This document shows positions 20,801 through 50,732 of a stretch of DNA of 64,000 nt, in pieces. The position numbers were made by a program, and so were the translations under genes. Origin of the DNA: Branchiostoma floridae (taxonomy: Eukaryota; Chordata; Leptocardii; Amphioxiformes; Branchiostomatidae); contig NC_049981.1 of the NCBI RefSeq assembly GCF_000003815.2, positions 12,555,625 to 12,619,624 on the forward strand, given 5' to 3'. Numbering within the stretch: the first letter of the stretch is position 1; each line of letters opens with the position of its first letter. Below the pieces are notes generated by a model. The model was not told the origin of the DNA and searched no databases. It saw only the letters and a program-made list of their open reading frames with translations.

Positions 20801-23463
20801 ATGCCGTGTGTTGTTTGCAAAAACTACAACTCAAAGACGAAGGGCCAAGGAATAAGCTACCACCAGTTTCCCCGGGACGAAGGCAGGCTGCAGAAATGGT
20901 TATCGGCCGTCGAGTCCCACTTACGGCCGCCTTGGACGGTAGACAGGATTCGCCAAAAATTTACCAGTCGGCCCGGAGCGGAGGTGTGCTCTCTGCACTT
21001 CTCTGCAAGCTGTTGTATCGACAATCCGAGGACTAAACTCGTTGCGTACAAGGTTCCTATAAAGGTGCTATTGAAGGGTGCTGTACCCACCATATTCGGA
21101 GAGGAGAAACCGGCGGAGTCGCCGAGTTGCCAGAGTGAAAATCTAGCCCGAAAGCAGGTAACGTTAACGTTGCTGTTGCAAGTCATATAAAACAATAGAA
21201 CAGTTAAAATTTGTGGATTTTTTTTTTATTTATTTTGATAATCCGTCCATTCATTACTCAGTTGCCGTCTGTATGTTATACTAGTATGTATTCAAAATGT
21301 AATTATCTACACGTGTAATAAATAATGTGGACATGAACACAAAATGTTTAAAAAGATTAATTATATTGACCACCATTCACGTTTGATACTCATTTGGTAA
21401 ATGATAAGCAAAACAAATACTGGAAGTTTTCGAAATGATGGCAATAATCCATCAGAGGAGTTTGGGCCATGAAGTAACACATATTTTACAAAATTGTTTT
21501 CAGCAATTACACGACTGGGTATCCAAGTAACACTAGTGATACAATAATCAATATAGATATTGAATCATCCATTCAGTCATTCATTTCTTTTTGTTCTGTT
21601 AGCTCATCCCAGAGAAAACACAGTCCATGGAGCCTCAACTGTCTGACCCCAGCAGCACATATGAGTTACAGTCTTTACAGTCTAGGCCAATCAGCACACC
21701 AGAACCACAGTCAACTAGCATGCCCGAAATGTTTACCGGACCAATCAGCAGACCCGAAATATTGGCTGGGCCAATCAGCACACCTGAACCAAAGTCTGGG
21801 CCAATTAGTAGGCTTGAACCACAGCCTGGATCAATTAGCAGACCCGAGCCACAGTCTGGGCCAATCAGCAGGCTTGAACCACAGCCTGGACCAATCAGCA
21901 GACCTGAACCCCAACCTGGACCAATCATCCAACTCAGGCCAGAGAGTGGATCAAAAAGCACACTTGAACCACAGCCTGGACCAATCAGAAGGAGTGAACA
22001 ACAGAGTGGACCAAGCAGCGCATCTGTACAACTTACTGGACCAATCAGTACACCCGAAACACAGTCTGGACCAATCAGCAGAATCAATTGCAAGCCTCAG
22101 GCTGGACAAAGCAGTCTTGTAATACAGACCGGCCCAGTCATTAATAGACTTAAACCACAGACTAGACCAATGAGCACATCTAAACCACAAATTGGACCAA
22201 TCAACAAAATTGAACCACAAAATGGACCATTCTGCAAGTCTGAACCACTGTCTGGACCAAGCAGCAGCCTTCAACAACAGCCTGCACCAATCAAAACACC
22301 CAAACCAAAGTTAGGACCAATCAGCACACTTCAGCCACAGACTGGCCCAATCAGCACACCTGAACCACAACCCATGGACACTAACTCAGACTGCATTGTG
22401 TTTCCAGTGGGACCTAAAATCTCTGTTCTTGCCATGTAAGTGCCTAATTTTACTGTGTTCTTCTTTCTTATCATTTAAACATCATACTGTAATAATATAC
22501 AGACATACATTGTACAAGCACAAGTATAGATCTATTAATAATCTGAACAAAGGAGAACAATATTTACTACACATTCCTGCATCAACTTTTCAAAAAATTA
22601 AATTGTTAACAAAATACAGAATACAGGAATACTTTCATCACCATGACGTCAGATCGAAAATTCTATGTCCTTTATCAGCTACCGACTCAAAAAAGAGGTT
22701 GCAGGTTTTTGCTAGGATCAGTCAGGATACCAGGTGAGGAGTCAGGTTACCAGAAACATAACATTTTTTCTTAGGCCCTATGTATGAAGAAAGGCAGTGT
22801 GTTACCATAATGTAATACTACTGGATGAATTACAAATTGTAGTTTGCTGACTATAGTCTGACATTGCTGACCTGCTCTGTCCACAGTAAGATGGATAGTC
22901 CCACCATGCAAGCGGACATCAAGCCTTTCCAGTGCCAGCACTGTGACTTCACAACAGTACTGAAGAAGGACCTAGATGCACACATGGTACAGCACGTCTT
23001 CGATAAAGCCTTCAAGTGTGGGATCTGCGGCCACTTGGCGGCATTCCGAAGTGCCCTGAGAAAGCACATGTTCGTACACACGAGAGAGAAACCCTACAAG
23101 TGTGAACGCTGCGACTATTCAGCAGTCAGTAGGAGGGATCTGGAACTGCACACAGATCATCAACACACAGGGGAGAAGCAGTACAAGTGTAACATATGCG
23201 AATATTCAACTGCTCGGAAACACAACTTAAACCAACACATGAACCAACACATTAGTGACAAACCCTTCATGTGTGGGGAGTGTGGGTTCAGGACAAACTA
23301 CAAGTGCTCGCTGGAAAAGCACATGAACGTTCACGTCTGCAATCTGGAGAAGCCCCATAAGTGTAAACAGTGCAGTTATGGTGGTTTCAGTAAGAAGAAC
23401 TTAGAGAGACATACACGAAACCGTCATGCAAAGAATGTGAAAAATAAATGTGAGAGTAGATGA
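20801..23463 (+). CDS. THAP-domain, repeat-array, six-C2H2-finger protein (copy A)
   Basis: Predicted nuclear DNA-binding protein of 588 residues. Exons: 20801-21157, 21603-22435, 22887-23463; phases agree and the sum is a multiple of three. Exon 1 is one THAP domain: MPCVVC start, the tryptophan in KWLSAVE, the VCSLHF zinc-ligand block and a closing AVPTIF. Exon 2 is a run of about 24 diverged 10-residue units (GPISRPEPQ type). Exon 3 encodes six fingers, each C-x2-C-x12-H-x3-5-H, starting FQCQHC, FKCGIC, YKCERC, YKCNIC, FMCGEC and HKCKQC, with a basic end. All zinc ligands are present. I do not recognise a named orthologue. A THAP joined to a finger array is a plausible transposon-derived regulator, but the target is unknown. 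Confidence 0.85.
21675..22370 (+). repeat. 30-bp coding repeat array (copy A)
   Basis: Unit close to GGACCAATCAGCAGACCTGA plus ACCACAGCCT, in frame, encoding GPISRPEPQP variants. Several other frames, including antisense, stay open through the array because the unit is a multiple of three. Those frames are shadows. Confidence 0.9.
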
Positions 23464-23485
23464 TATAAATGGTCCCAGCTCATGT

Positions 23486-23702
23486 AAGGGCGCAGTCACA
23501 TAGGTCGTGTGGTCGTTGTACAATTTTGATGCCATGGGATTTTCAAGTGGCCTGTGACAGGACCAAGCATCAACAAGGATCCAAAACAGCCTTTTGTGTA
23601 CCAAGACAGTTGAACTTTGCAGGAGACGTACATTTTTGTCTTCCAAAATGCCTGAAGTTAGTGATCGTACCGTGATTGCACGATCTATGTGTTCATGCCC
23701 TA
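23486..23702. mobile_element. PIF/Harbinger-like MITE, copy A
   Basis: About 217 bp flanked by TAA on both sides. The imperfect terminal inverted repeats start GGGCGCAGTCACATAGGTCG and end ..CGATCTATGTGTTCATGCCC. A 3-bp TAA/TTA target duplication is typical of PIF/Harbinger elements. Matching copies are at 29352-29569 and 35599-35815. Confidence 0.7.
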
Positions 23703-24900
23703 AGAGTAAGACAGGCACCAGCTAAAAGGACATGTAAAACAACCTTAGCAATTATATGGTTGAAGAGAACATGTGGCATAATTAGCTGCATGCCAATTTT
23801 AGTGACACCCACCGGTCCCCGCTCTCCATAGCCCTGTGGCAATATCCTAGCTAATGAAATAGTCTTTTGAAACTGTTTGATCATGTTAAGTGTTGTTTAA
23901 AACGTGTGAACCGTCAAATCTAACATACATTGTAAGGCTCATTTGTGATATTAGCGAATCCATTACAACAACTTCATTACAGAATTGAAACTCAAACACG
24001 AACCTAATTTCAACTTCATTCCCCATGGTGCTTTATCCCTCTCCCTCCCTCCTGCCCTCTCTTTCTCTCTCTCTCCATCTATCTATCTCTCTCGCAATAG
24101 AGTGCCATCTGAATTTGGGGACAGGTTTTCGTCCCATCTTTGTCTGGGTCAGTTGGCAAAGTAGCAAAGGACCTTATCTTCGGTGACCTTTGTGTCAAAC
24201 AATCTGGGGGCGTTTGTCAAAGAACGGGAACATCTCAATTTTTTTTCCGAGAATATTACCGCATAGTCGCAAGGGTCCGGGTTATTTTTATAGACAGAAA
24301 AATTTTGACGGACACCCACACTTCCGACATTTCAACACGGAGACTGATCTTGCACAATTAATCACTCAGACCATCCTAGGACTATTCACCGACCATAGTC
24401 GGATTGCAGCTGGCACAAGTTACAATTAAGAACATGAAGCAATGGATGTTAACTGATCACCAGTTTGATCACCAGTTTTTGTACTCTCCGCACTATCTCC
24501 GCATTGAACACTGTATCAAAGAAACGAAACAACAAAAGACCGCATTTTGCCTACTAGTATACAAGGACGTTATATCACGTCCTTGTAGTATACAAACGAC
24601 TCTGGCATGTAAGTTAATAGAGAAATTAAAGGGCTCGATCAATTCTGTTATATATTTAGCAGAAATGGAGTCTTATGAGGATGAGAGAGTATTCTTAGAC
24701 CAATCGATCTCAGACGATTTGTCTAAAATCGAAGAACGGAAGAGTTACTTGATACTATCTTTACATAGCAGAACCAGTCAATCCACATATAGGCATGAGG
24801 AGGACACGCCCACAAACATAAAGATTACATCACATGAAAGACAACGGATTTACATCAATTTAACATAATTATAGTGCGTTGACAGGTACTAGTATTTAAC
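23703..24900 (+). other. Non-coding part of copy A with a doubtful 465-base open frame
   Basis: Contains a CT-rich simple repeat (24035-24095) and an open frame at 24404-24868 that has no ATG at its beginning. Copy B differs in this frame at seven positions, six of which change the residue, and copy C breaks the frame. That pattern argues against a protein. A perfect 11-base inverted repeat (TACAAGGACGT, 6-base loop) lies at 24560-24587. Confidence 0.6.
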
Positions 24901-25077
24901 TATAAAGTTTATTGCAAATTCATGCCCGTGGGCTAATTGCAGATAACATGGGAGATTCAGACAAAGTAAAAACAATTTCCCCACTTCCACTCCCGCATTC
25001 CTTTGACAATCCCTCTCTCGACCTGAGAAGAAGAAGGATCTCCCGACTCAAGTCCTGCCGTGATCTCCAGAAACGCA
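24901..25077 (+). promoter_or_regulatory. TATA-like box and leader exon, copy A
   Basis: TATAAAG at 24901 is followed by an ATG at 24948 and a donor CGCA|GTAAGT after 25077. The 130 bases from ATG to donor would encode 43 residues starting MGDSDKVKTISPLPL. Copy B has the same structure ahead of AIF1. No downstream exon is recognisable for copy A before the gap. Confidence 0.5.
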
Positions 25078-25245
25078 GTAAGTAACCGCACAAAAGTCAA
25101 ACATTGGCAGTCGTCAGTTTACATATCTGCTTTCAATACATGTGTATTTTGTTAGTACTATATGCATCTTTCGTTGTAGCCAAAATCGGGCCTACTTTAG
25201 TTCTTAGTTCCTCCAACTTGGCTCTAACCATCACTTTTCTACAAA

Positions 25246-26815
25246 CAAGAAATCTTTTTAAAAAAGCTGTGCCTTGCCGCGTGGTAGGAATATCGTCAGG
25301 AAAAGGTAGGTCGGCACTTCAAGCCCAGCAAGGCAAAATGCTATGCCTTGGCGTGCAGTAGGGATAATTTGCTTGTCTGCTGAATACGTATTATGGTAGC
25401 CAAAGCCTTGTATTGATCTGTTAATCTTGTTGGAAATATATGTAGGTGTCTTAAAATATGACCTTGCATTTTCTGACCCTCGACCACTAATAAATATGAA
25501 ATAATTAGACATTATTTCAAGGATATACAGTAACAATTTTAATTTATTTCATTTCTGTGAAAGGGCAGCTGAGTGGGTACTGTATGCTTAGCAGGAGTTC
25601 AGGTACTGTGGTCAGCTGAGAGGGTACTGCATGCATAGCAGGCGTCCAGGTATTGTGGCCAGCTGAGTGGGTACTACATGCACAGCAGGAGTCCAGGTAC
25701 TGTGGTCAGCTGAGTGGGTACTGCATGCATGGCTGGAGTCCAGGTATTGTGGATAGCTGAGTGGGTACTGCATGCATAGCAGGCGTCCATGTATTGTGGT
25801 CAGCTTAGTAGGAGCTGCATGCATGGCTGGAGTCCAGGTACTGTGGTGAGCTGAGTGGGTACTGCTTGCACAATTTGAGGTACTGTGGTAAGTTGAGAGG
25901 GTACTATATCAGAGTCCTCCCCAAATGATGGAATAAGGGAGGCTCTCCACTATACTCCAGCCCAGCTCCACTATACTACATTTGAAATCTAGTGTGTTTC
26001 TTCCCTATTTTCCTGATTAGTTTTGCTAATTTTAATGAAAATTCACAGATTTTTGTGGTATCACTTTTCCAGTTGGCATTGTCTGCAAAAACTTGTGAAT
26101 GGGCGATGGTCAAAGCAATAGTGGTTTTGACACTTCACAACAAAGAAGTCACAACACTATATTGTACTTGTAGTATTTGACACCATCTGTCATGCAAAAT
26201 GAACAAATTTTCATGAAAGCGCAGCGCGTTGGTTTGGATTATTTTTGCCAGCCCCTCCACTATACTAAAAGATTCTGGGGAGAACCCTGACTATATGAAT
26301 GACTGCAGTTCAGGTATATGTACTATGGTAAGATTGAACAGTTAGTCAAAAATAAATTAATTGTCTTTTGACAAATTTGACAACTTATATGAAACGTGTT
26401 GTTTATCAGATGGCATTACTTTGTATATTGCAATATTTGATGTAGTTCATCAGAGCAGCGTGCATTTGTGCTAATCACAATACAGTCTGTACGGTGGCTG
26501 CCCCCCCTTCTTGTTGTATTGAGTGCGAATGCACAGTCTGCACGGTGGCAGGGGTTGGAAGATTGAGTGCAAAAGCACAGTCTGCACTATGGCAAGGATT
26601 GGTAATAAGTGGCAGTGATTAAACTTTGTCTACTTGATGGCGTATTTCATTCAATATACACTTTGGCTTTAACACCGCTCTGGTCTGTGCTGTGAAAAAA
26701 TCTGCAATCTAAGACTGAAAGAGAAAGGAAAACAATTTCTTGTGGCCACATTAAAACCACCTGAAAGACCATAATCATATTTAATTGATAAAATACCTAA
26801 TGGTTTCCTAAACAT
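25246..26815. other. Intergenic region up to the assembly gap
   Basis: Apart from the minisatellite at 25566-25880, this stretch shows only direct repeats of a GCACAGTCTGCAC motif near 26490-26590. No exon is supported. Confidence 0.5.
25566..25880 (+). repeat. 47-bp minisatellite
   Basis: About seven copies of a 47-base unit beginning CAGCTGAGTGGGTACTG, with GCATGC in the middle and CAGGTACTGTGGT at the end. Copies start at 25566, 25613 and so on, and the last one is degraded. Confidence 0.85.
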
Positions 26816-26915
26816 NNNNNNNNNNNNNNNNNNNNNNNNNNNNNNNNNNNNNNNNNNNNNNNNNNNNNNNNNNNNNNNNNNNNNNNNNNNNNNNNNNNNN
26901 NNNNNNNNNNNNNNN
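26816..26915. other. Assembly gap of 100 N
   Basis: Exactly 100 N, the usual placeholder for a gap of unknown size. It separates copies A and B of the duplicated block. Just right of it, CGACTAGAAAC and GTTTCTAGTCG form an inverted repeat (about 26945-27010). Confidence 0.99.
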
Positions 26916-27419
26916 AATACTTTTTAGTCCAATACGTTCCGCCCCGACTAGAAACAAAAACATCCTGTATATTATATTAAAATTAAATAAGTTTTTCGTT
27001 TCTAGTCGCCCCGGCTAGTAACGGTACTGACTTGCAAATCGCAGCAAAAAAATATAACACAGTTAACTAAGACAATATCAAAATTTGTGGATTTTTTTGC
27101 AATTTGTCCATTCATTACTCAGTCGCCGTGTGTATCATGTTGTATTCAAAATGTAATACTTATAATATATAAATAATGTGGTAAATGTTTAAAAAGATAA
27201 ATTATCTTGACCACAATTAACGTATAAATAAGCCAAACAAATAGTGGACATTTTCGAAATGCTGGCAATGATTCATCAGAGGAGTTTGGGCCATGAAATA
27301 ACACATATTTTACAATTTTCAGCAACTAGACGATTCGGTGTCCAAGGAACACTTACTACAATAATCATTATAGATAATGAATCATCCATTCAGTCATTCA
27401 TTTCTTTTTGTTCTGTTAG

Positions 27420-29329
27420 CTCATCCCAGAGAAAACACAGTCCATGGAGCCTCAACTCTCTGACCCCAGCAGCACATATGAGTTACAGTCTTTACAGTCC
27501 AGGCCAATCAGCACACCTGAACCACAGTCAACTAGCATGCCCGAAATATTTACCGGACCAATCAGCAGACCCGAAATATTGGCTGGGCCAATCAGCACAC
27601 CTGAACCAAAGTCTGGGCCAATCAGTAGGCTTGAACCACAGCCTGGATCATTCAGCAGACCCAAGCCACAGTCTGGGCCAATCAGCAGGCTTGAACCACA
27701 GCCTGGACCAATCAGCAGACCCGAGCCACAGTCTGGGCCAATCAGCAGACTTGAACCACAGCCTGGACCAATCAGCAGACCTGAACCCCAACCTGGACCA
27801 ATCATCCAACTCAGGCCAGAGAGTGGATCACAAAGCACACTTGAACCACAGCCTGTACAACTTACTGGACCAATCAGTACACCCGAAACACAGTCTGGAC
27901 TAATCAGCAGAATCAATTGCAAGCCTCATGCTGGACAAAGCAGCACACCCGAAGTACACTCTCAACAAATCAGCAGTCTTGTAATACAGACCGGCCCAGT
28001 CATAAATAGACTTAAACCACAGACTAGACCAATGAGCACATCTAAACCACAAATTGGACCAAGCAACAAAATTGAACCACAAAATGGACCATTCTGCAAA
28101 TCTGAACCACTGTCTGGACCAATCAGCAGCCTTCAACAACAGCCTGAACCAATCAAAACACCCAAACCAAAGTTAGGACCAATCAGCACACTTCAGCCAC
28201 AGACTGGCCCAATCAGCACACCTGAACCACAACCCATGGACACTAACTCAGACTGCATTGTGTTTCCAGTGGGACCTAAAATCTCTGTTCTTGCCATGTA
28301 AGTGCCTAATTTTACTGGGTTCTTCTTTCTTATCATTTAAACATCATACATGTACTGTAATAATATACAGATATACATTGTACAAGCACAAGTATATTAA
28401 TAATCTGAACAAAGGAGAACAATATTTACTACGCATTCTTGCATCAACTTTTCAAAAAATTAAATTGTTAACAAAATACAGAATTATACAGGAATACTTT
28501 CATCACCATGACATCAGATCGAAAATTCTATGCCCTTATATTATCAGCTACCGACTCAAAAAAGAGGTTGCAGGTTTTTGCTAGGATCAGTCAGGATACC
28601 AGGTGAGGAGTCAGGTTACCAGAAACATAACATTTTTTCTTAGGCCCTATGAGTATGAAGAAAGGCAGTGTGTACATGTAATACTACTGGATGAATTACA
28701 AATTGTAGTTTGCTGACTATAGTCTGACATTGCTGACCTGCTCTCTCCACAGTAAGATGGACAGTGCCACCCTGCGAGCGGACATCAAGCCTTTCCAGTG
28801 CCAGCACTGTGACTTCACAACAACACTGAAGAAGGACCTAGACGCACACATGGTACAGCACGTCTTTGATAAAGCCTTCAAGTGTGGGATCTGTGGCCAC
28901 TTGGCGGCGTTTCGAAGTGCCCTGAGAAAGCACATGTTCGTACACGCGAGAGAGAAACCCTACAAGTGTAAACGCTGCGACTATTCAGCAGTCAGTAGGA
29001 GGGATCTGGAACTGCACACAGATCATCAACACACTGGGGAGAAGCAGTACAAGTGTAACGTATGCGAGTATTCAACTGCTCGGAAACACAACTTAAACCA
29101 ACACATGAACCAACACGTTAGTGACAAACCCTTCATGTGTGGGGAGTGTGGGTTCAGGACAAACTACAAGTGCTCGCTGGAAAAGCACATGAACGTTCAC
29201 GTCTGCAATCTGGAGAAGCCCCATAAGTGTAAACAGTGCAGCTATGGTGGTTTCAGTAAGAAGAACTTAGAGAGACATACACGAAACCGTCATGCAAAGA
29301 ATGTGAAAAATAAATGTGAGAGTAGATGA
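27420..29329 (+). CDS. Headless paralogue: repeat array plus six C2H2 fingers (copy B)
   Basis: Exons 27420-28297 and 28753-29329 match copy A exons 2 and 3, with the same splice sites and phases, no stop codon and all zinc ligands. No THAP exon precedes it where expected (about 26975). Translation could begin at the ATG at 27444 (context TCCATGG, reading MEPQLSD), which would give a finger protein without THAP. The repeat exon is 45 bases longer than in copy A and has lost and gained individual units. Finger changes are mild (ERC to KRC, NIC to NVC). It could be a functional truncated gene, a pseudogene, the tail of a gene whose first exon lies in the gap, or an allele of copy A placed in tandem by the assembler. 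Confidence 0.6.
27492..28236 (+). repeat. 30-bp coding repeat array (copy B)
   Basis: Same GGACCAATCAGCA-type unit as copy A. Units have been added near 27700-27780 and removed near 27860, so the array changes length in multiples of the unit. Confidence 0.85.
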
Positions 29330-29351
29330 TATAAATGGTCCCAGCTCATGT

Positions 29352-29569
29352 AAGGGCGCAGTCACATAGGTCGTGTGGTCGTTGTACAATTTTGATGCCA
29401 TGGGATTTTCAAGTGGCCTGTGACAGGACCAAGCATCAACAAGGATCCAAAACAGCCTTTTGTGTACCAAGACAGTTGAACTTTGCAGGAGACATACATT
29501 TTTGTCTTCCAAAATGCCCGAAGTTAGTGATCGTACCATGATTGCATGATCTATGTGTTCATGCCCTAA
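29352..29569. mobile_element. PIF/Harbinger-like MITE, copy B
   Basis: Positional equivalent of the 23486 element, with the same TAA flanks, inherited through duplication of the block. Confidence 0.65.
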
Positions 29570-30786
29570 GAGTAAGACAGGCACCAGCTAAAAGGACATG
29601 TAAAACAACCTTAGCAATTATATGGTAGAAGAGAACATAGTGGCATGATTAGCTGCATGCCAATGTTAATGACACCCACCGGCCCCCGCTCTTCGTAGCC
29701 CTGTGGCAATATCTTAGCTAATGAAATAGTCTTTTGAAACTGTTTGATCATGTTAAGTGTTGTTTAAAATGTGTCTCGTATGAACTGTCAAACCAAAATC
29801 TAACATACATTGTACCTCATTTGTGATATTAGCGAATCCATTACAACAACTTCATTACAGAATTAAAACTCAAACACGAAACCTAATTTCAACTTCATTC
29901 CCCATGGTGCTTTATCCCTCTCCCTCCCTCCTGCCCTCTCTTTCTCTCTCTTTCTCTCTCTCTCCATCTATCTATCTCTCTCGCAATAGAGTGCCATCTG
30001 AATTTGGGGGCAGGTTTTCGTCCCATCTTTGTCTGGGTCAGTTGGCAAAGTAGCAAAGGACCTTATCTTCGGTGACCTTTGTGTCAAGCAACCTGGGGGC
30101 GTTTGTCAAAGAACGGGAACATCTCAATTTTTTCTTTGTCCGAGAATATTACCGCATAGTCGCAAGGGTCCGGGTTATTTTTATAGACAGAGAAAAATTT
30201 GACGGACTTCCGACATTTCAACACAGAGACTGATCTAGCACAATTAATCACTCAGACCATCCAAGGACTATTCACCGACCATAGTCGGATTGCAGTTGGC
30301 ACAAGTTAAAATTAAGAACATGAAGCAATGGATGTTAACTGATCACCAGTTTGATCACCAGTTTTTGTACTCTCCGCACTATCTCCGCATTGAACACTGT
30401 ATCAAAGAAACGAAACAACAAAAGACCGCATTTTGCCTACTAGTATACAAGGACGTTATATCACGTCCTTGTAGTATACAAACGACTCTGGCATGTAAGT
30501 TAATAGAGAAATTAAAGGGCTCGATCAATTATGTTATATATTTAGCAGAAATGGAGTCTTATGAGGATGAGAGAGTATTCTTAGACCAATCGATCTCAGA
30601 CGATTTGTCTAAAACCGAAGAACGGAAGAGTTACTTGATACTATCTTCACATAGAAGAACCAGTCAATCCACATATAGGCATGAGGAGGACACGCCCACA
30701 AACACAAAGATTACATCACATGAAAGACAACGGATTTACATCAATTTAACATAATTATAGTGCGTTGACAGGTACTAGTGTTTAAC

Positions 30787-30963
30787 TATAAAGTTTATTG
30801 CAAATTCATGCCCGTGGACTAATTGCAGATAACATGGGAGACTCAGACAAAGTAAAAACAATTTTCCCACTTCCACTCCCGCATTCCTTTCACAATCCCT
30901 CTCCCGACCTGAGACTAAGAAGAATCTCCAGACTCAAGTCCTACCGTGATCTCCAGAAACGCA
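30787..30963 (+). promoter_or_regulatory. TATA-like box and leader exon, copy B (AIF1 upstream)
   Basis: TATAAAG (30787-30793), ATG at 30834, donor A|GTAAGT after 30963. The 130-base open stretch ends ..SRLKSYRDLQKR in phase 1. The next AIF1 exon starts in phase 0, and direct joining would hit a stop, so this exon is either untranslated leader or joined through an unseen small exon. Confidence 0.5.
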
Positions 30964-31716: not shown

Positions 31717-33857
31717 ATGGAGAAATCGCTGGACCAGATTAACCAGGTGAGTTCTCGCGAGAAAGAGTGGAACTTAATGACTCAAGATCGGCTAAGGAGC
31801 TAAAATAGTGGGACAGAGATGGTCGGACGTCCAGAAACAACAGATTACTCGATAATCCATTTCGGATATAATTTGTTTGAAACAGTAAGAGAGAAAGGAA
31901 GAAAACACGTCTGTAGGGAACACTGTCTATTCCAATGAAAACAGATCAGAGCTTTTGATGTGAAAGGTGTGGACACATATAGTTGGGCCCGGCCTCACGT
32001 GAGGCCTTCCGGCCAACAACAATCCAGACACTAAGTACACGTTTGTGATTGATAACCGTTGAACTATTGTTAGGAATATCCCGAAACGATAGTAATATTG
32101 GCGTTTAGGGTGTCTGTAATGACAGTGTGGTATAACAATTAACACAAAACGTTTCCGTCAGAACGATGTTTTGTGTCTAAACCGCATACGGCATAAAAAG
32201 CGCACTTGATTCTCAATCCAGTGTCCGTCTATCAGACGTTCGTATGTGTAGAGACATTTCGTTTAGGAGTCATTTCTTGCCTCGATACATGAAAATCAAC
32301 AATTTCGCTATCAAGGAACACGCCTGACGACTGTTGTCTGTTCATCCACGGGGACCCTCCAATTGCAAGGTTCAGACCTACAAGGCTCTAGTGTTCTAAT
32401 GAGACCCATCTGTCTGTCGAGAGAGAAAAGGACAGAAAAGACTGGCGTGATTGTCGTGATCATAAACCGTTGTTACACGAAAAGCGAATTATGCAGGAAA
32501 TGGCTATTGACAGGACGACCCTGTCAAGTAGTGTACATTTTTCCACTATTGACAGGATGATTTTATCAATAGTGAGAATTTTTCACTATTGACAGCATCA
32601 TCATGTAAATAACCTCAGGTTTTTATGTATCACTTGTCAATTCATCATTCCCATTCTCGTTACAGAAGTTCCAGACGGATGATGACTACAAAGAGGTGGA
32701 AGATCTGGCCGACAGGTTAGAGTCACTGAAAAGTGAGTATTCATATTCTGACTTTCCGTATGGCTGTTGGTCACATACAGGCTAGTTACATTATCCATAT
32801 GGCCACGATTTCTATTGGGACGAATTTCACGCGGAAGATATCGATGGTGATTTTTATTGCTGAATATCATTTTTTCTCTTTCCACATTTTCAGAGAAGTT
32901 TATGGAGTTTGATGAAGACAACAGCGGAGATATCGGTATGTAGTTGAAGTAGTGTTACGCGAAAGAAGTTTGAAGTGCTCCCTGTAATTAGAATCCATGT
33001 TGATCTGTATAATGGATATAACATACGTTCAGTCTGAAATCAGACGTGATCGAAATCCCGACGTACTACAGTGTCTAGCTATCCGAGACAGATTTGGTGT
33101 AACGTAACTTGCTTTTTTGGATATACTTAGACATATGGATGTCGGGAAAAAAAACAAAGTTGAATCACATGCACTATAGACCAACCATCAAAACCGAATT
33201 TTGTTACAGATATAATGGAGTTGAAGCGAATGATGGAGAAGTTAGGTCAGGCCAAGACTCACCTGGAGTTGAAGAAGATGATAGCGGAAGTGGACACCAC
33301 CAATGGGGGCGTCATCACGTACGGGGACTTTCTTAGAATGATGCTGGGCAAAAAATCCTCTGTCCTTAAGCTGTAAGTACAGTCCGAATGTCTTCGATAC
33401 GTGTTTGAAACCATTCTTTATACTCGTACAACACGACTGGTAATTAGTTCGCTCCACGTATTGACAAATGAGGACATCTATTCAGTTAAGGAGATAAGAG
33501 TGTAAGGCTATGCCTATGGCATCCTTCAGTTTTATGTGTATTTTATGTGAATAAGATAAGACAAAGCCTGCCATAGTCACGAGGTTAATCAACTTTGCTA
33601 GATACTCGGAAGAAGAGTTACCTTTGAATATACACCTTCACGATCAGATCTATTCCTAAACACGAGTTCCTGGCATTGCTTTTCTTTTTTATATTCTGTA
33701 ATCATATTATGTCTATATTTCTGTTGTGTGTTGTTGTGGTTTGTGTAACGTCTTCATTTGTATGTCTTACAGGATCTTGATATTTGAGGAGAAGAAGCAG
33801 GGGAAGGAGAGGCCTAAGGGAACACTGCCAAAACCTGACCTCAGCAGCCTACCCTAG
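31717..33857 (+). CDS. AIF1: Allograft inflammatory factor 1 (Iba1)-like EF-hand protein
   Basis: Small calcium- and actin-binding protein of the AIF1/Iba1 family, involved in phagocyte membrane ruffling in vertebrates. Exons: 31699-31746 (ATG at 31717), 32666-32732, 32894-32935, 33210-33372, 33773-33857; 128 residues from this ATG against 147 in human. [15 protein letters not shown] is followed by [20 protein letters not shown] and then [14 protein letters not shown], all close to vertebrate AIF1. The first EF loop ([12 protein letters not shown]) has all canonical ligands. The second ([12 protein letters not shown]) is degenerate. The exon is open upstream of the ATG (EGSRSS), so the N-terminus may extend into an unseen exon. 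The upstream leader exon at 30834-30963 is out of frame with it. Confidence 0.88.
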
Positions 33858-35598
33858 ATCAACATCAGAATGCCCGTCCCGTCCCTGGCCGTTTTTATCA
33901 GTATATGTTGGAAGAATGGAGTTATGGTTTTAGATTTCTAGTGGGATATTTTGGACATACAAAGTTCTATCAATGAAATAACGATTCTTAGTTGTAAGGA
34001 TAATACAAGCTGAGTAGAAGCATATTTTCCTTGTCTTCTGGTAACACAGAAGGAATTTTCTGTCGATCGTCTTAAACCTTGGGGTTAACTTTAACTATCC
34101 GAATGAAGTGCAGAATGTGTGTAGACTAAATCGAGTCCATGTTTCCATCTGTGGACTAATTGTATGTTGGGGAATAGAGATTTTTTTGTGTACTTCAATG
34201 GCACAAATTGTACTTTACGGTCGCATACACTTCGGTATAATCATAAATGTTTTCTATCGTGTTTAATACTGGTACTTCGTTTAGAATATATGGAAAGTAT
34301 AATAGAACTGGAGGTAGATTAAGACACGTGGCTTGGTGTTCTTAATTTCAAAATCTGTGTCAGATGGCTGGGCAGTTACACTGGTGTTAGTTCGTTTCAG
34401 TTGACAGAATCGTCGACGTCTAAATGACAATTGGAACTGTTTGCAGTGGATGATTTAGTTGTTAATGGCCATTTTCAAAGAATATGAATGGACAAAGAAT
34501 AGTCACAGAAGACGAACCCGCGAGCTCTTGGAGTAAACATCAGAGTCTGGTACCGTACGCCCCCACACATGCGTTTTGACACAGTCGCCAGATCAGATAA
34601 ACATACTTTTGTTGGCATTAATTTGCCTGCTGACCCAGAGAATCGTACTAAGAAACCCCGTGAAAATCGCTACAGATGGCACTGTATAAGCCTATGTCAG
34701 AATAAAAGCTAAAGCTTGGGTGGAGGGTTTAAAGACATTGTTATTCTTGGTAACGATGGTGTGAAACACCCGAGCCCCCAACGCAGTGCGGTGCTGCAAA
34801 CACACCACTGACTGTCGGTGTTGCTGTCTCAAATTCAGCAGCCTTTGCTTCAGCTTGTTTGACAGGAAGACTTACACAGCTCGGAAAACTGCATTTTTGA
34901 ACTGCTAAATGTGAATCAGATTCAGACGGTAGTTGAGACTGACTACTCCCTTGTAAAATCGTGTTTTTCTGTAATAGCCAGCTGCAGTTTTGTTCAAAAT
35001 CACTATAATAATTGTATAATAATACATTCTTTAAAAGTACACACACACAAACGCTTTCGAAAATATAACTTTCCAGCGAAGGTAATAAGAAAGGAGGCAT
35101 AAGAATGTGATCATGCCGCTCAAGTCCAGATCGCACCTTGCGGTTCTGCAGTTTGCAATCGTGGTTGGGACGATTTTCTGCAATGGTATCATAAACTGCT
35201 AGACGGCGCTTTTGAACCGTAAAAAATCATACATATACTCCTTGATGTACCTGTCTTGCCAAATACATGCAGCATGCTGTATGTGCTGGAACAAAGACAG
35301 CCACAACTATACAGTTACATCTAGACGACAAGCTGCACTTCTATTCTTTTCAACACAACCCAACAGGTTTAAATCTAGGGTTAGAATGATCAGGCACAAC
35401 TCAGCAGTAATCCTAATAGCCAAGAAAATACACAAGAAAGACAAAGTCAGTGACTGACCAACTTTAATCTATTCGTATTTCTGTTAGTGATACGTTGATG
35501 AAACGAATTCCCAAATAAATCATTTAAAATGAAAGTGCAACAAACACAGTTGGTCCATTTTTATCCAAAGGACAATCCCTGGAACAATCCCAATCCCT
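33858..35598 (+). other. AIF1 3' UTR and flank, later duplicated
   Basis: From about 34000 to 35595 this matches 40925-42668 in order, for example TTTAACTATCCGAATG and CTGCAGTTTGCAATCGTGG. No coding exon is supported. The copy includes the triplicated segment (34430-34760). Confidence 0.7.
34000..35595 (+). repeat. Duplicated 3' flank, copy 1 (after AIF1)
   Basis: Collinear with 40925-42668 over about 1.6 kb with moderate divergence. It ends at CATTTAAAATGAAAGTG..GGACAATCCC in both places. Copy C of the upstream block starts right after it. Confidence 0.8.
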
Positions 35599-35815
35599 AA
35601 TGGCGCGGTCACAAAAGTCGTGCGATCGTCGTACGATTTTGATGCCATAGGATTTTTAAGTAGGCCGTGACAGAACCAACCACCCACATGGATCCAAAAC
35701 AACAATTTGCGTACCAAGACAGTGGAACTTTGCAGGAGACGTACATTTTTGTCCTCCAAATGCCCAAAGTTAGGGATCGTACGACGATCGCACGACCTAT
35801 GTGACCACGCCCTAA
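35599..35815. mobile_element. PIF/Harbinger-like MITE, copy C
   Basis: The best preserved terminal repeats of the three: GTCGTGCGATCGTCGTACGA near the left end is mirrored by TCGTACGACGATCGCACGAC near the right. TAA flanks are present. Confidence 0.7.
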
Positions 35816-37329
35816 CTGCGTCTAAAAAGACATGTAAAATGTAAAGCAACCTTAGCAACGTTTGAAGACAACAGAGGTGGTGTAATTAGCTACATGCCAA
35901 TTTTAATGACACCCCCCCCCCCCCCATCTCCATAGCCCTGTGGCAGTATCTACCTGGTAATAAATGATTGATAGAGCCTTTTGAAACTATTTGTGTAATC
36001 ATTCTAAGACCATGTCTTGTCTAAAATGTCTCATATGAACCAGCAAACCTATGTAACATACATCTTACTGTGAATGTATTTCAACAATTTCATTAAAGAA
36101 TTAAAACCCAAACAGGAAACCTAATAGCAACTTCATTCCCTATGGTGTTTTATGTAAAGGCCTCTCCAAACCCCCCCCCCCCCCCCCCTATCCCTCAATC
36201 TCTCTCTCCCCATCTCTCTCAATGTCTCTTTCACCCCCCCCCCCCTCTCTGGTGGTCTGTGGTCTGTGGAAGGTACACCACACTTCTGGTCCGTCCATCG
36301 CCCCTGTAACATACCACATTGATATTGTTACTAAACTATTGCGCATATAGTTCGGTCCTATCCTTTTGCCTGCATTCCAATATGAAAGGCAATAGTGTGA
36401 CATCTGAATTTTCTGGGCACGTTTCGCCCCATCTTTGTCTGGGTCAGTTGACCAAGTAGCAAACAGGTGGGCTTTGTGTCAAAATGCCTGGGGCCGTATA
36501 TCAAAGAACAGGAACATCTCCAATTTTTCTTTGTCCGAGAAAATTACCGCCTAGGGCCGGGTTATTTGGGGGACAAAGAAAACTAAATTTGATGGACACC
36601 CACACCTCCGGCATTTTGACACAGAGACTGAGAAATATCACCACTCATCACTCGGCCAATCCTAGGACCATTCACCGACCACAGTCGGAAGCAGCCGGCA
36701 CAAGTTTGCATTAAGAACATGAAGCCATGGAAATCGATCACCAGTTTTTATACTCTCGACGAGCTCTTCAAAGTTTTTTTGTAAAGTGCAACGATATGTG
36801 TATCAAAGAAACAAAACAGCAAAGGAACGCATTTTGCTTATACAAATAAAATAAAACTATACTCGAAATAAAGTAACGGAATGTATCAATTGAAATTAAT
36901 TAGAAGGATTGGTCAGCAACAGAATTTAACGCACCAATACATAATACAGAAACATGCCGAAGAGTATGCAAAAAAAAACGTGTGTCATTGAATTAATATT
37001 AGTTGACACCATGGTATATGTAGATGATAACAGTATTTTGAAACAATTCACCGTGTTGAGTCCAACCATTTTAAATGTGTCCCGTATGAGCCGCTAAGAT
37101 GAAATATACGTCGTCTGTGGTTGTGATTTCCACATCAGTACAGAATTGAAATTGAACTCGTACACAAAACCTCATTCCATCTTTATTTCCTGTGGACCAC
37201 TGGTGTTTTCATATTAAAAAAAAACTCTCTCTGTCGCTCTGCCTGCGCCTGCATGTGTGTGTGTATGCATGTATGTGTGTGCATGTGTGTATGTTTATGT
37301 GTGTATGCGCTCGTGTCTCTGTGTCTGGC

Positions 37330-38245
37330 AGGCGAGAAAGGGTTTCATCGGTAAGTTTCAAAAGACGCGGAGTTTTTGGTCCAAGATTTCATGACACTAC
37401 CACCGGTACTGCACACGGCATATTTTAGACATTTTAGCCATCTCTCCTCATGATATGAATTCATCTATTCACAAACTGTACGGAAACTAGTTGGGAGAAT
37501 TCCTTTGAGTGCTTGACGGTCATTTTATTTCTTGTTCTACCGGGAACAATCAAGATTTCAACTTTGATTTGTGTAAACAATGACATTATATAATGTCCTT
37601 GGTTGAAACAATGAGCTTTTATCAGTGATAAAAGCTCCTTGGTTGAAATAAGTAAATTAGATATAAACGGCCCCTGTTAATTAGTTGTGTGTCTGTCACA
37701 CTAGAAAAGGTTACATCGGAAAGTTTTAAAAGACAGAGTTTTGACTCCATGGTTTCATCGGTCTTTCATGACACGGTCAGCTGCACACGGCACCTTTCAG
37801 ACAATTTTTGCTATCTCGCCTCATATGCATGTTGAGTGCACCTTATCTATTCAGAAACAAACTTGAAAGAGTTGTGAGAATTCCCTTGGCGGTCATTCTT
37901 GTGATTTGCAGGGAACAATGGACATTTCAACTTTGATTTGCCGAAATAAGTAGATTAGATATACAGGCCCCTGTTGATTAGTTGTGTGTCTGTCACACGA
38001 GAAAAGATTTCATCAAAAAGTTTCAAAACACGCGTACGGAGTTTTGGCTCCACGGTCTCATGACGCTGGTACGTCACAAATTTTGCCATCTCGCGTGATG
38101 ATGAGTTCACCTATCTATTCACCAACAAACTTCACGGAAACTACGATCGTATTTGAGAGAATTCTCTTGACGGTCATTTACTTCTTGCTACCAGTCGGGA
38201 ACAACCGAGATTTCGACTTTGATTTGTTGTATAAAATTTGTTGAT
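37330..38245 (+). repeat. Three tandem units of about 300 bp
   Basis: Units at about 37335, 37700 and 38000 each run from GAAAAGGTTTCATCG through AGTTTTGGCTCC, TTCATGAC, CGGTCATT and GGGAACAA to TTTGACTTTGATTTG. Between the first two, GAGCTTTTATCAGTGATAAAAGCTC forms a hairpin (about 37613). A GT-rich simple repeat lies at 37255-37325. Confidence 0.7.
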
Positions 38246-38772
38246 TAGTCAACTCAGTTCTCGCTCAAGAAAACAATCGGACAGTAGTTGTCTACGAAAC
38301 CAAATTGACAGTCACTGATTTTTTGGTCAATTTATCAAGACAAACAGCGCCATGGAAACAATTGTGTGATGTTTTGTCCTAGGGCTGTGAAGAACAGGTG
38401 TTTGTCTTTAAAATCAGTATGCAGCTAATTGCAGCTCCTCTGTTGTCTTTAAACGGTCGTTATAGAGAACTTATAGGGCTTGATCAATAATGCTATATAT
38501 TTGGCAGAAATGTATTCTTGTGAGAGTGAGAGAGTATTCTTAGACAAATTGATCTCAGATAATTTGTCTAAAACCGAAGAACGGAAGAGTTACTAAGTAC
38601 TTGATACTATCTTCACATAGTAGAACCGGTCAAACCACATACAGGAGGACACGCCTACAAACAGAAAGATTGAGAGTATATCACATGAGAGACAACGGAT
38701 TTACATAAATTTAACATAATTATAGGGCGTGGGCAGGTACTGGTATTTAACCCCATTCCCCCTTGCACTCCC

Positions 38773-38855
38773 GCATTCCTTCGACAATCCCTCTCCCGAC
38801 CTGACAAGAAGAAGGATCTACAGACTCAAGTCCTACCGTGAACTCCAGAAACGCA
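38773..38855 (+). promoter_or_regulatory. Leader exon, copy C (upstream of the WSC gene)
   Basis: Matches the 3' part of the leader exons at 25077 and 30963, including the donor CGCA|GTAAGTAACC. A deletion of about 70 bases has removed the TATAAAG box and the ATG, so any use would be as an untranslated first exon. The next acceptor downstream (39555) opens the WSC gene. Confidence 0.5.
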
Positions 38856-39560
38856 GTAAGTAACCACAAAGTCAGGCATTGGCGGTCGTTTTACATATCT
38901 GTGTTCATACATGTGTATTTTTTGTTAGTACTATCAAGGAGGTTGAAAAGAGGGTACTATATATGCATTTTTAGTTGTAGCCAAAATTCGGCCTACTTTA
39001 GTTCTAGCTCGCCCTATTAAGGCTCTAACCATCTCTTTTCTGCCAAAAATGGGACCAACATTTGGAGTGAAGAAATTATGTCATATCTAAAAGACATTGC
39101 AACGGCATTGAATTTTGTTAAACGAAAGTTTGTGGAGCATTATCTATATACATTATGTCTCGCCTGAATGCGTTCACTAGTATCAACAAACATACTAACG
39201 TTATAGTTAACTTGTGAAGTTGTATATGTACGGAGTAGAATGAGTATCCTCTGGATAGAATGATGAGGAAACTGTTGGACTGTTGTTTGTACAATCATGC
39301 AGAATTTACTGGGGAACATTTCAACTGAGAACCTTATCATAGCTGAAATCTGTACATCAAGAACCGGTCTTTCTACTTTCTTGGGCGTCTTCGTTCTCAT
39401 GTTTTCTTTAGGTAACCAAAATGGCTTTTTAAGCTTTCTTCTTCCTGTCTACTCGCCGATCAGACCAAATCGTTCATCCTCACATAAGTTTATGTCTGTA
39501 TGTCTTCAAAGTACAACGTAATAGTAACCATTATTGTTTTGTTTATTTTGAGCAGACACC

Positions 39561-40893
39561 ATGAAGGTTTTTACTTGCACGCTGCTCGTTGTGGTACTTC
39601 TGGCGGTGGCTAAACAAAGCTCTGCCGCGGAGTACAAGGGTTGCTACGTGAAGAACTACGGAGAGCCCTACTTCCCGTACAGCTTGGTAGACAGGAAGAT
39701 GAGCAACGACATGTGTATCCAGCACTGTCGGGCCCAGGGCAAGCCGTATGCAGGTACGTTCTCCGTCTGGGTGGATTGTGATGAACTTTAATCTGTGATT
39801 TGATAGGTGTTGGAAAGACAAAGCTTGTGGTCTATTTTGGGCCTCCTGGTGCATGACCTTATTACTGCAGCAGAACATCACTTTTTTATCATCTTTTGTC
39901 CTAAACATGCTTCGGCCTTATCGTTCGTGTTATCTAATGTTACATGTTGTATTTTTTCCTTAATAGGAACCAAGAGTGTTCGTTGCGGCTGCGGTACTGA
40001 GGAGCACGTGGTAGAAATGACGAAAGCTGAGGAAAGCGACTGTACCAACGACTGTAAGGCAGGAGGGGGGATCTGTGGAGGCTACGCCAGGCTGTCAGTG
40101 TACAGCACCGCCCAAGGTAACCAAAAACATATTTCCAACTGAAACGTTACAATATGAGGTGTAGTCTACACATGTTGCGTGGATATTGTCAATTTGGTAC
40201 AATTTTATACGTAACAGTTTATATTTTTCTCATTTGCCACTCAATAAAACTGTTTTGGTCGCAAGGCCATGTTCATTTTAACATACCCATGACATATCGA
40301 CACATTTTGTCATATCATATAGCGCTACTATAAATTCCACAATGCAGCAGCAAAATGAGGAAATAATTACATGTGTGCCGTACTTTGCAAACACAAAATA
40401 TCGAAAAATGGCTAGCAATTTTGTAGAATGCCATATTCAAAGAAAACGAAGTTTAAGAATAAAGATGGAGAATCTATTAATAATATTCAGTATACCATAG
40501 TCTGTGTTTTCGGCCATTTTGTCAACCTTCCTGGCCAGTTAGTTCTCATAATGAAGTCAACTATTTTTTTTTGCCAAACGTTTTTTTTTATTCTCAGACT
40601 CGCACCAGTGATATTTTGGGGATGTCATTCATATAATCACATCAACGTTACATGGCCTAGTGCAAATGATACAATCGTTGTTCCAGAGTTTGTCAAATCA
40701 ACTTAATCGTCTTCCTCTTCCCCCAGAAAAGCGGATGTTAAACTTGAGGGAGGTTCTTGGCGACTTGACCGACACCTTGGAGACACTGGAAAACGCCTAC
40801 AAACGGGAGATGGGCGAGACGGAAGACTTTGAGGAGGACATGAGTGAGCTGGAAGACATGGAGGCCGCTGGTATGGCTGAAGACGAGGAGTAA
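39561..40893 (+). CDS. Secreted WSC-domain protein with acidic C-terminus
   Basis: Exons 39561-39753, 39967-40116 and 40727-40893 give 169 residues; phases agree. The acceptor AGCAG|ACACC puts the ATG five bases into its exon, so an upstream leader exon is expected. Residues 1-22 (MKVFTCTLLVVVLLAVAKQS..) are a signal peptide. Residues 25-113 form a WSC domain, a cysteine-rich carbohydrate-binding fold: GCYVKN, MCIQHCRAQ, the CGCG block, a DCTNDC-type pair and CGGYARLSVYS. The last exon encodes a heptad-like helix (LGDLTDTLETLENAY) and a strongly acidic end (..MAEDEE). No membrane segment is seen. Possible roles include lectin or innate recognition, but none is shown. Both flanks are homologous to those of AIF1. 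Confidence 0.85.
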
Positions 40894-40924
40894 CACTACT
40901 AGCAATAAATTTAGTATATAGCAC

Positions 40925-42668
40925 GCCTTACAAGTTGTCTGAGTAGGGATATTACAAAAGTGAGCAGAAACAAATTTTCCTTGACTATTGGTACCACGGA
41001 AGGGATTTTCAGTTGTCTTAAAACCCTCGGGCAAACTTTAACTATCCGAATGGAGTGCAGAATGTGTGTAGATTAAATCGAGTCCTTGGTTTCATCGGTG
41101 AACTAGTTTTATGTTGGGGAATGAAGAGTGTTACAGGTAGAGTAAAGCATGTTTGCATGATTTCATCATCAATTTTTAACTTTGTCTAAATTGATATTTA
41201 CCACGGTGTGGATCAACGTTACATGTATTTCAATGGCACAAATTGTACTTTACGGTCGCATACGCTTATACGGTATAATCATAATTGTTTTCAATCGCGT
41301 TTAATACTGGTACTTGGTTTAACATGTATGGAAAGTATAATAAAATTGGAGGTCGATTAAGACGATGGCTTTATGTTTTTAATTTCAAAATCTGTGTCAG
41401 ATGGCTGTGTCATGTCGTTTCAGTTGACAAAATTGTCTAAATGATAAATGGCACTGTTTCTGGTGGGTGATTTAGTTGTTAATTAAGGGTCATTTTCTGG
41501 ACAAAGAATAATTACAGAAGATGACCCCACTCTTTGAGTGAGCAGCAGTGTTTGGCACCGTACCGCCAGGCATTTTGGAACAATGGCCAGTACAGATAAA
41601 ACATATTTTTGTTGGCATTACTTTGTCTGCTGACCCAGAACAGGTGGAACGAACCCCGTGAGTAATCGCTACAGGTGACACTGTGTTGTCTTTGATGTCA
41701 GAATAAAAGATAAACCTTGGGTGAAGGGTTTAAAGACATTGTTATTATTGGTGATGAGGGTATGAAACACCTTAGCCCACAAACACATCACTGATCGCCG
41801 GTGTTGCTGTCTTAAATTGAGCAGCATTCTCCAAGTATTATTATAATGATAGAATGTAATTCCCTTGTGATCTGTGTCTTTGGTACATAGTCCCCTTAGC
41901 TATCGTTTTTGTTCGTTAGACTTGTGTAGCTCGGAAAACTGTATCTATGAACTGTTAAATGTGCATCAGTAGTTGAGACCGACCAAGTGACACATCCCTC
42001 GTAAAATTACATTTGTCTGCAATAGCCAGCCGCAGTTTTGTTCAAAATCGCTATACAGTAATTCATTCACACAAACAAGTACACACACACAAACGCAATC
42101 GAAAACATAGTTGCAAGGGAAGGTAATAAGAGAGGAAGAATGTGATCATGCTGCTCAAGTCCTGATCGCGCCTTGTGGTTCTGCAGTTTGCAATCGTGGT
42201 TGGGACGATTTTTCTGCAATGATATTACAAACTGCTAGGCGGTGCTTTTGAACTGTCAAAAATCATACATGTCCTCCTTGATGTACCCGTCTTGCCAAAT
42301 ACATGTAGCATGCTGTTAAGTAATGGAACAAAGGCAGCCACAATATAACAAACTATGCAGTTACAGCTAGACGACAAACTGCACTTGTATTCTTATGAAC
42401 ACAACCCGACAGGGTTAAATTTAGGGCTAAACTATTGGGCACAACTCAGCATTAAGTAAGCATTAAGATGGTTGAAATAATCAGGCACCTACCATTCTAA
42501 TAGCCATGAAAATACACAAGAAAGACAAAATCAGTGACTATACCAACTTTAATCTATTTGTATTACTATCAGTGATAAGTTGATGAAACAAATTCCCAAA
42601 TAAGTCATTTAAAATGAAAGTGTAACAAACACAGTTGGTCCATTTTTTATCGAAAGGACAATCCCAAA
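40925..42668 (+). repeat. Duplicated 3' flank, copy 2 (after the WSC gene)
   Basis: Collinear with 34000-35595. The polyadenylation signal AATAAA at 41339-41344 falls in it; the AIF1 copy reads AATAGA at the same place. It contains the third triplicated segment (41450-41770). No exon is supported. Confidence 0.8.

Positions 42669-43209: not shown

Positions 43210-50732
<7,523 letters not shown>

Follow-up and report, generated by a model that had tools for sequence, protein, structure and literature searches.

How do two genes with unrelated coding exons come to lie side by side within the same duplicated surroundings, and which of them arrived second? The question is raised by a window of 64,000 nucleotides from the Florida lancelet, Branchiostoma floridae (the whole stretch of DNA that was analysed), in which a gene of the AIF1 family and a gene encoding a WSC domain are enclosed by homologous sequence, here termed the shell. 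A preliminary description of the sequence suggested that the shell is the AIF1 locus, tandemly duplicated, with its coding body replaced by the WSC gene in one copy.

Three copies of the upstream part of the shell, A, B and C, are arranged on the forward (+) strand, to which all window features given below belong, and self-alignment confirmed the arrangement as described earlier. Copy A (21206-25251, self-BLAST) contains a zinc-finger ORF, a MITE, the promoter, the leader and a splice donor at 25077, with no matching body behind them. In copy B, the 5' part of the shell (29351-31279, from self-BLAST and K2P) consists of the MITE, the promoter (30503-30786), the leader exon with its donor at 30963 and the start of intron 1. 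Its counterpart in unit C (35598-39197), which matches B in four self-BLAST pieces of 73.6-83.5%, comprises the MITE (35598-35814, including its TAA ends), a stretch absent from B (36748-38461), the promoter, the leader with its donor at 38855, and the intron. The donor reads CGCA before the junction and GTAAGTAACC after it at all three positions, and the common upstream segment reported for A, B and C is present in each. Downstream, the 3' flank of the WSC unit (40943-42665) recurs after AIF1 in unit B (33994-35579, with AATAAA at 34701 and then at 35514) in three collinear self-BLAST pieces of 81.5, 75.7 and 78.1%, so that the asserted homology between the flanks of the WSC gene and those of AIF1 holds. 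The exon-bearing bodies between these flanks, 31619-33990 for AIF1 and 39198-40940 for WSC, are likewise as unrelated as had been stated, their similarity not exceeding that of dinucleotide-preserving shuffles (z 0.6, n=40). The end of the B flank is joined to the end of the unit C MITE by an 18-bp filler (35580-35597), which constitutes the tandem-duplication junction.

Copies A and B agree at 91.8% over 4,140 alignment columns (21206-25251 against 27080-31140, self-BLAST), with a K2P of 0.027 over 2,841 sites, and are separated by a 100-N gap (26816-26915) on which the preliminary description did not remark. They may be allelic copies, judging from this gap and from a divergence that falls inside published lancelet allelic variation, given as 4.39% SNP variation in the Chinese lancelet (PMC4284660). 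A-B homology was not found past either end of copy A, which speaks against allelism. The tail of copy A shows no similarity to the two bodies or to the B flank (z -0.4, 0.2 and -0.3).

The origin of the AIF1 body can be followed to a relative on another contig, C236, which carries a complete AIF1 gene of 152 amino acids with its coding exon 1 at C236:73218-73179. The spliced window gene scores 169.8 bits against the Pfam AIF-1 model (PF21008; cut-off 50), covering model positions 11-140 of 140, and two loci among the six rows of a search with this model lie above the cut-off. A third AIF1 gene was considered and rejected; the other four rows fall below the cut-off, and the strongest of them, on C14, is a different EF-hand protein, which we take to be EFHD-like. 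Seven pieces of the C236 gene (C236:71746-66816, minus strand), introns included, align to the window from 31618 to 34000, which rules out an AIF1 retrocopy. The inserted body (31619-33993) accordingly comprises part of donor intron 1, exons 2-6 and the first ~135 bp of the 3' UTR, with stretches lacking a C236 match at 32418-32633, 32743-32807, 33405-33425 and 33483-33738. Its exons are exon 2 (31699-31746), exon 3 (32666-32732), exon 4 (32894-32935), exon 5 (33210-33372) and the coding part of exon 6 (33773-33857, stop TAG 33855-33857). The window gene has no coding first exon, and the frame of exon 2, intact in C236, is broken: the original frame ends early, and an open frame begins at ATG 31717 in a shifted frame. 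The limits of the match coincide with both junctions between shell and body, namely the end of a flank relic at 31618 (as aligned to the B flank; 31609 as aligned to C) and the start of the flank at 33994. Queries with the promoter/leader, the relic and the flank gave no match in C236:60001-80000 (1,134 N; word size 7, E 0.01). Both parental loci can thus be identified, the AIF1 relative on C236 and the shell relative in unit C.

The relic just mentioned, e', was overlooked in the preliminary description. It lies in AIF1 intron 1 (31280-31618, including AATAAA at 31530), is joined directly to the leader intron and matches the 3' flanks at C 41426-41782 (71.9%, z 80) and B 34418-34790. Homology between B and C after the leader stops at 31279/39197, and e', corresponding to C 41426 onward, starts at the very next base. 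Site patterns place e' weakly outside both flank copies (40 sites against 27 and 24), leaving room for e' to have arisen earlier. Examined by eye, one of the joins has a 7-bp overlap with one mismatch (GTARGGA, 33994-34001), one has the 18-bp filler and two have 0-1 bp; junction 1 is without microhomology, and junction 2 has at most 1 bp of clean microhomology.

The reading that we favour, with a probability of roughly 0.77, is that AIF1 was inserted into a duplicated shell, is the newcomer there, and forms a chimeric gene. AIF1 is regarded as the newcomer because no shell was found around the complete C236 gene, because homology stops at both junctions and because the window copy is 5'-truncated; the direction proposed in the preliminary description is thereby reversed, and the WSC gene is the probable resident of the shell. 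The starting locus would have held the promoter, the non-coding leader exon, probably the WSC gene as original occupant, and the 3' flank, and would then have been duplicated. The upstream copy would have come to lack the WSC-bearing stretch (39198-41425 in unit C) and to contain a 2.4-kb genomic AIF1 piece, reaching from inside the first intron to ~135 bp past the stop, between the flank relic and a full flank copy. A template-switch path would lead along the shell to 39197, on to 41426-41782, through AIF1 from intron 1 to the 3' UTR, back to 40943-42665 and finally to the MITE at 35598.

It is plausible from the sequence that the gene inside the shell uses the leader and 3' end of the latter, as had been suggested. 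The leader would be spliced onto AIF1 exon 2 in unit B and onto the ATG exon of the WSC gene in unit C, and AIF1 would be polyadenylated in the borrowed flank. From the AIF1 stop to the flank there is neither AATAAA nor ATTAAA, and the first AATAAA downstream is that at 34701, within the borrowed flank. The leader stretch of B contains an ATG (30834) whose frame is not that of AIF1 in exon 2 and which could hamper translation.

Whether the joins arose together is addressed by their divergence. Upstream non-coding sequence of B and C (K2P 0.237, 0.196-0.281), e' and the C flank (0.249, 0.175-0.363) and the AIF1 copies of the window and C236 (0.244, 0.201-0.299) date alike, in keeping with a single complex duplication by template switching. 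Divergence of the 3' flank is lower than in these three non-coding segments (0.169, 0.141-0.201), a difference that calls for constraint, for gene conversion or for some later event as an explanation; the promoter and leader exon are the best-conserved part of the shell (0.120 against 0.237 for upstream non-coding sequence). That all joins stem from one replication-based template-switching event is put forward at somewhat less than even odds. Equally tentative is the fuller proposal that one such rearrangement made a functional hybrid, combining an AIF1 body with a neighbour's promoter, its leader exon and its region for 3' processing, while the donor gene stayed intact next to it; that an out-of-frame ATG then became the start of a shortened, conserved AIF1 through a small net deletion in exon 2; and that AIF1 may thereby be rewired to the WSC programme.

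A stepwise version of the same core, in which the WSC unit was tandemly duplicated, WSC was deleted in B and AIF1 was inserted separately, would account for the lower flank divergence, as 0.169 lies below the 0.24-0.25 of the other non-coding segments. We consider it unlikely, since all but one of the four non-coding segments are of similar age and since separate steps would not readily bring an insertion to lie precisely between the flank relic and another, complete flank copy. Less probable still is an ancestral unit with both genes (leader, WSC, flank, AIF1 and second flank) that was tandemly duplicated, a different gene then being deleted from each copy, in C through recombination of the two direct flank repeats with one another. 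Such a unit would explain e' upstream and the full flank downstream of AIF1 without template switching, and the weak placement of e' outside the other two flank copies agrees with it, but it requires an earlier flank duplication and two independent deletions, and under it the AIF1 copy, e' and the B/C duplication would have similar K2P values by coincidence.

The original proposal, an AIF1 locus that was tandemly duplicated and whose body in copy C gave way to the WSC gene, is favoured by the shared flanks around unrelated bodies and by the residues of the proteins. Polarised with one human AIF1 sequence as reference, five AIF1 changes fall on the window branch, 13 on the C236 branch and eight are ambiguous, so that ancestral residues are better preserved in the window copy than in the C236 protein, which with its more derived residues need not be the literal donor. 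The three observations that mark AIF1 as the newcomer weigh against this proposal, as does the start of e' in AIF1 intron 1 exactly where unit C homology ends; nor was a close copy of the WSC gene found elsewhere that could have been its source. We regard it as very improbable.

The suspicion that the flanks could be dispersed repeats proved correct for the MITE and incorrect for the promoter/leader and the 3' flank. All seven matches of a promoter/leader query (38500-39000) lie inside A, B or C (three of three candidates scored), and the flank query gave ten, five of them, the query itself included, falling in B or C (eight of eight candidates scored). The MITE is dispersed, at least 36 of 47 rows being copies at other sites with lengths of about 200-230 bp; the best 40 of 2330 candidates were scored, which makes this search a weak test for the stretch from MITE to promoter. 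In the 274 kb around the window (3,614 N), no further copies were found past A, B and C except short repeat matches, and for the sequence from MITE to promoter it is this local search that speaks against dispersal. A coincidental arrangement of dispersed repeats is a negligible alternative: the MITE, a dispersed repeat carried by one WSC intron and the other five flank matches, scraps of 53-81 bp elsewhere, would agree with it, but the promoter/leader and the remaining flank were found in this array only, and collinear.

The window gene is probably a chimeric gene of known kind, AIF1-derived. On its predicted product, it is named AIF1-derived rather than standard AIF1 because the full-length N-terminus is missing through the break in the exon-2 frame. 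Translation would begin at ATG 31717 and yield 128 amino acids, with the EF-hand pair kept and the usual AIF1 N-terminus gone. The GGK-x-F/Y-G region at the N-terminus, which is typical of the family and not required to pass the Pfam cut-off, is absent. In common with the AIF1/Iba1 family (PF21008), the protein aligns to the human AIF1 chain (PDB 2g2b) from residue 21 to the end; it differs in lacking the residues before chain residue 21 and in its promoter and first exon. Over exons 3-6, window and C236 copies show dN 0.138 and dS 0.298 (pairwise dN/dS 0.46, Fisher p 0.023), and the protein looks conserved; together with the polarised changes, five on the window branch against 13 on that of C236, these values speak for selective constraint after its birth.

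Comparable processes are known. Chimeric genes from tandem duplications in Drosophila yakuba likewise shuffle exons and regulatory sequence between genes, with new expression expected (PMC5460883); in contrast to the cases set out there, the promoter, leader and 3' flank come here from one foreign locus and the body from another contig, and a sister unit still carries the other gene alongside. Complex duplications attributed to MMBIR or template switching also combine duplication, deletion and a piece from elsewhere, some of their joins showing a short overlap or filler, whereas the present event is a germline one, is ~24% diverged and has a clear overlap at one of four joins. A TIR element bordering the duplicated unit, here the MITE, is shared with TIR-transposon-linked duplications, for which template switching is the proposed route (PMC8277862); unlike in those described there, the AIF1 piece lies outside the MITE, which marks only the left edge of unit C. 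Among the literature matches listed for lancelet AIF1/Iba1 or WSC, titles and the beginnings of abstracts do not mention the locus, and the accessible portion of the main text of PMC12373286 mentions neither AIF1 nor WSC.

Between the Chinese and the Florida lancelet, introns are reported to retain virtually no similarity after 100-130 Myr (PMC4284660). Since intron similarity is lost across that split, the event should be younger, and other lancelet genomes should therefore carry the pre-event state; chromosome-level assemblies are named for B. belcheri, B. japonicum and B. lanceolatum in PMC12373286. Old chimeric genes often retain no trace of how they were formed; here the body still has a relative and the shell a sister copy, and what is left of the replaced stretch can be read together with the junctions. 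In vertebrates, AIF1 is a marker of macrophages and microglia. If the second lancelet AIF1 runs under a foreign promoter, caution is due in using AIF1 as a cell marker in these animals.

The WSC gene of unit C consists, after the leader, of exon 2 (39556-39753; ATG 39561, with the acceptor 5 nt upstream of the ATG), exon 3 (39967-40116) and exon 4 (40727-40893), which encodes an acidic tail and ends with the stop at 40891-40893, followed by AATAAA at 40904. An acceptor at 39412 scores higher than that before the ATG exon (9.2 against 6.3 bits, scored on consensus frequencies as a plausibility check only), so that splicing of the leader to the ATG exon is not the sole option. The spliced protein scores 37.3 bits against Pfam WSC (PF01822; cut-off 27.8) over residues 25-103. 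It shares this domain with Kremen-1, to whose chains it has a weak match (PDB 5fww and others; E 0.004), and differs from it in having a single WSC domain and the acidic tail, a Pfam scan finding no further domain. By eye, its N-terminus is hydrophobic, and the protein is putatively secreted.

Self-BLAST of the window recovers three copies of the upstream segment, which comprises the MITE, promoter, leader exon and donor. Copy A (21206-25251) matches copy B (27080-31140) at 91.8% identity, and the segment of unit C (35598-39197) aligns with B (29351-31279) as four pieces of 73.6-83.5% identity, the leaders of all three being closed by an identical donor. As the preliminary description had claimed, the sequence downstream of AIF1, into which copy B leads (33994-35579), is repeated collinearly behind the WSC gene of unit C (40943-42665; three pieces, 75.7-81.5%; self-BLAST), and the bodies between these flanks, 31619-33990 and 39198-40940, are unrelated, with similarity at shuffle level (z 0.6). 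Restricted to unit C are three imperfect direct repeats of ~290 bp (37320-38237), between its MITE part and promoter (self-BLAST).

The picture of a shared shell therefore holds for the flanks common to both units, but it overlooked a relic in AIF1 intron 1 (31280-31618), which repeats a portion of the 3' flank (C, 41426-41782; z 80). B-C homology downstream of the leader ends at 31279/39197 and the relic starts at the very next base; compared with unit C, B looks like a leader intron joined to the flank, with 39198-41425, including the WSC coding exons, absent. The AATAAA of the relic (31530) aligns with those of both full flank copies (34701 and 41702); this conserved signal, now within AIF1 intron 1, could give premature 3' ends.

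In a profile search of the assembly with the Pfam AIF-1 model, two loci exceeded the cut-off, the window and a second contig, C236; the remaining four of six rows fell below it, the strongest being a different EF-hand protein. The C236 AIF1 is complete, encoding 152 aa; its first exon is coding (C236:73218-73179) and its exon-2 frame is intact. Seven pieces of its DNA, introns included, align to the window between 31618 and 34000; the AIF1 stretches 32418-32633, 32743-32807, 33405-33425 and 33483-33738 have no C236 match. Queries with the promoter/leader and flank of B and C and with the relic found no match in C236:60001-80000 (word size 7, E 0.01; 1,134 N there). Because the C236 homology stops where the intron-1 relic ends on one side and where the 3' flank starts on the other, we take the AIF1 body to be a module placed in the shell. 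On the left it begins inside donor intron 1, which would have left the coding first exon uncopied; on the right it ends about 135 bp beyond the stop codon (33855-33857). An AIF1 locus with its body swapped for the WSC gene, as proposed earlier, has the direction reversed, given a complete C236 AIF1 with no detected shell and homology ending at the shell/body junctions; insertion of AIF1 into the shell is supported by the junctions, the absence of exon 1 and the state of the frame. The locus would thus be a real, well-preserved birth of a chimeric gene, adding another case to a kind already known. Intron 1 of the C236 AIF1 holds a TIR-type element (about 260-1320 of L036, the stretch C236:70001-80000; by eye) that the window copy lacks.

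By conceptual splicing, the window AIF1 scores 169.8 bits against the AIF-1 model (cut-off 50). Its exon 2 has 48 nt (62 nt in C236) and the original frame hits a stop; ATG 31717 is the first in the frame fitting the other exons, with a predicted product of 128 aa. Across exons 3-6, dS between the copies is 0.298 and dN 0.138 (Fisher p 0.023), and the 26 differing residues, polarised with human AIF1 as sole outgroup, fall 5 to the window branch and 13 to C236, with 8 ambiguous. These figures do not suggest a window AIF1 decaying as a pseudogene, and they make C236 the more derived copy at the residue level, which argues against C236 as the literal ancestor, not against the insertion direction. 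Since neither AATAAA nor ATTAAA occurs between the AIF1 stop and the 3' flank, the borrowed flank probably supplies the 3' end. The copy B leader (30834-30963) contains an ATG-started frame with a splice phase equal to that of the original AIF1 exon 2; A/B substitutions in this frame do not look coding (by eye).

The WSC gene, conceptually spliced, encodes 169 aa with a WSC domain (Pfam, 37.3 bits, cut-off 27.8). No close relative of the protein was found in the genome, where three of 13 rows were its own exons and the other ten showed 32-42% identity over about 45-70 residues; among solved structures, only Kremen-1 chains matched, weakly (4 sequences, best E 0.004). Among the best 40 of 1265 candidates, the only matches to its DNA body elsewhere were those of a dispersed repeat in intron 3 and a single short one in intron 2. 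In a plausibility check against a splice-site consensus, the acceptor 5 nt upstream of the ATG and the donor 38855 further upstream each reach 6.3 bits, and because a stronger acceptor-like site (39412, 9.2 bits) lies in between, the leader may be spliced to either. In contrast to AIF1, the WSC gene has its own AATAAA (40904) and so need not rely on the flank for its 3' end; the simplest reading would make it the original shell occupant. Convergent with it are WD40-type exons (43210-44049, minus strand), presumably SMU1-like, with weak Pfam WD40 matches below cut-off in two of three ORFs.

Dispersed repeats as the source of the shared flanks find no support for the promoter/leader and 3' flank in the 513.4-Mb assembly containing the window, where repeat counts are lower bounds and matches to these parts lie in the array besides short scraps. 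The C promoter/leader query (38500-39000; 3/3 candidates scored) gave seven matches, every one in A, B or C, and of ten matches to the 3' flank query (8/8 scored), one was the C copy itself, three fell in the B flank, one was in AIF1 intron 1, and the other five were scraps of 53-81 bp outside the array. Query 22380-25250 gave at least 47 matches, seven in the array, among the best 40 of 2330 candidates; at least 36 were MITE copies of about 200-230 bp elsewhere, with two shorter MITE pieces, and two of the matches listed, each <160 bp, were neither array nor MITE. This query is a weak test of the non-MITE parts, as MITE copies crowd the candidates.

Ages were estimated as K2P distances with block-bootstrap 95% limits. 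Three segments agree: B/C upstream non-coding sequence (0.237; 0.196-0.281), relic and C flank (0.249; 0.175-0.363) and non-coding AIF1 sequence of window and C236 (0.244; 0.201-0.299). The 3' flank (0.169; 0.141-0.201) is either younger or under more constraint, and the promoter with leader exon (0.120; 0.082-0.164) is conserved; the relic falls, weakly, outside the two full flank copies (40 sites against 27 and 24). According to PMC4284660, the Chinese and Florida lancelets split 100-130 Myr ago, their orthologous introns have virtually no similarity, and Chinese lancelet alleles differ by 4.39% SNPs. On this basis, and if the genome is that of a Branchiostoma, the event would postdate that split and, with a divergence of about 24%, predate today's allelic variation by a wide margin.

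We favour one complex duplication by template switching, in which the template path would have run from the shell to 39197, to 41426-41782, through AIF1 from intron 1 to 3' UTR, to 40943-42665 and to the MITE at 35598. Mixed evidence comes from the junctions as read by eye: 33994-34001 shows a 7-bp overlap containing one mismatch, 35580-35597 is an 18-bp filler repeating ACAATCCC, and the remaining two joins have 0-1 bp of overlap. A stepwise history is possible instead, as is a two-gene ancestor followed by reciprocal loss. For template switching, the whole event fits MMBIR as described in PMC2621351, and the MITE that bounds unit C on the left fits the switching at TIR elements reported in PMC8277862.

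Copies A and B differ by 2.7% in substitutions and are separated by a 100-N gap (26816-26915), with no homology past either end of their match. They are possibly alleles left uncollapsed and presented as a tandem duplication, or possibly a recent true duplication. A C2H2 zinc-finger ORF is duplicated along with them (22843-23463 and 28709-29329; pS 0.077, pN 0.020), preceded by a repetitive ORF with GPIS/SRPE repeats (27420-28301) that has no Pfam match. Immediately upstream of copy A lies a THAP-domain ORF (20723-21190; Pfam, 53.2 bits), and right behind its orphan leader a minisatellite whose units are spaced about 94 bp apart (25563-25909; self-BLAST).
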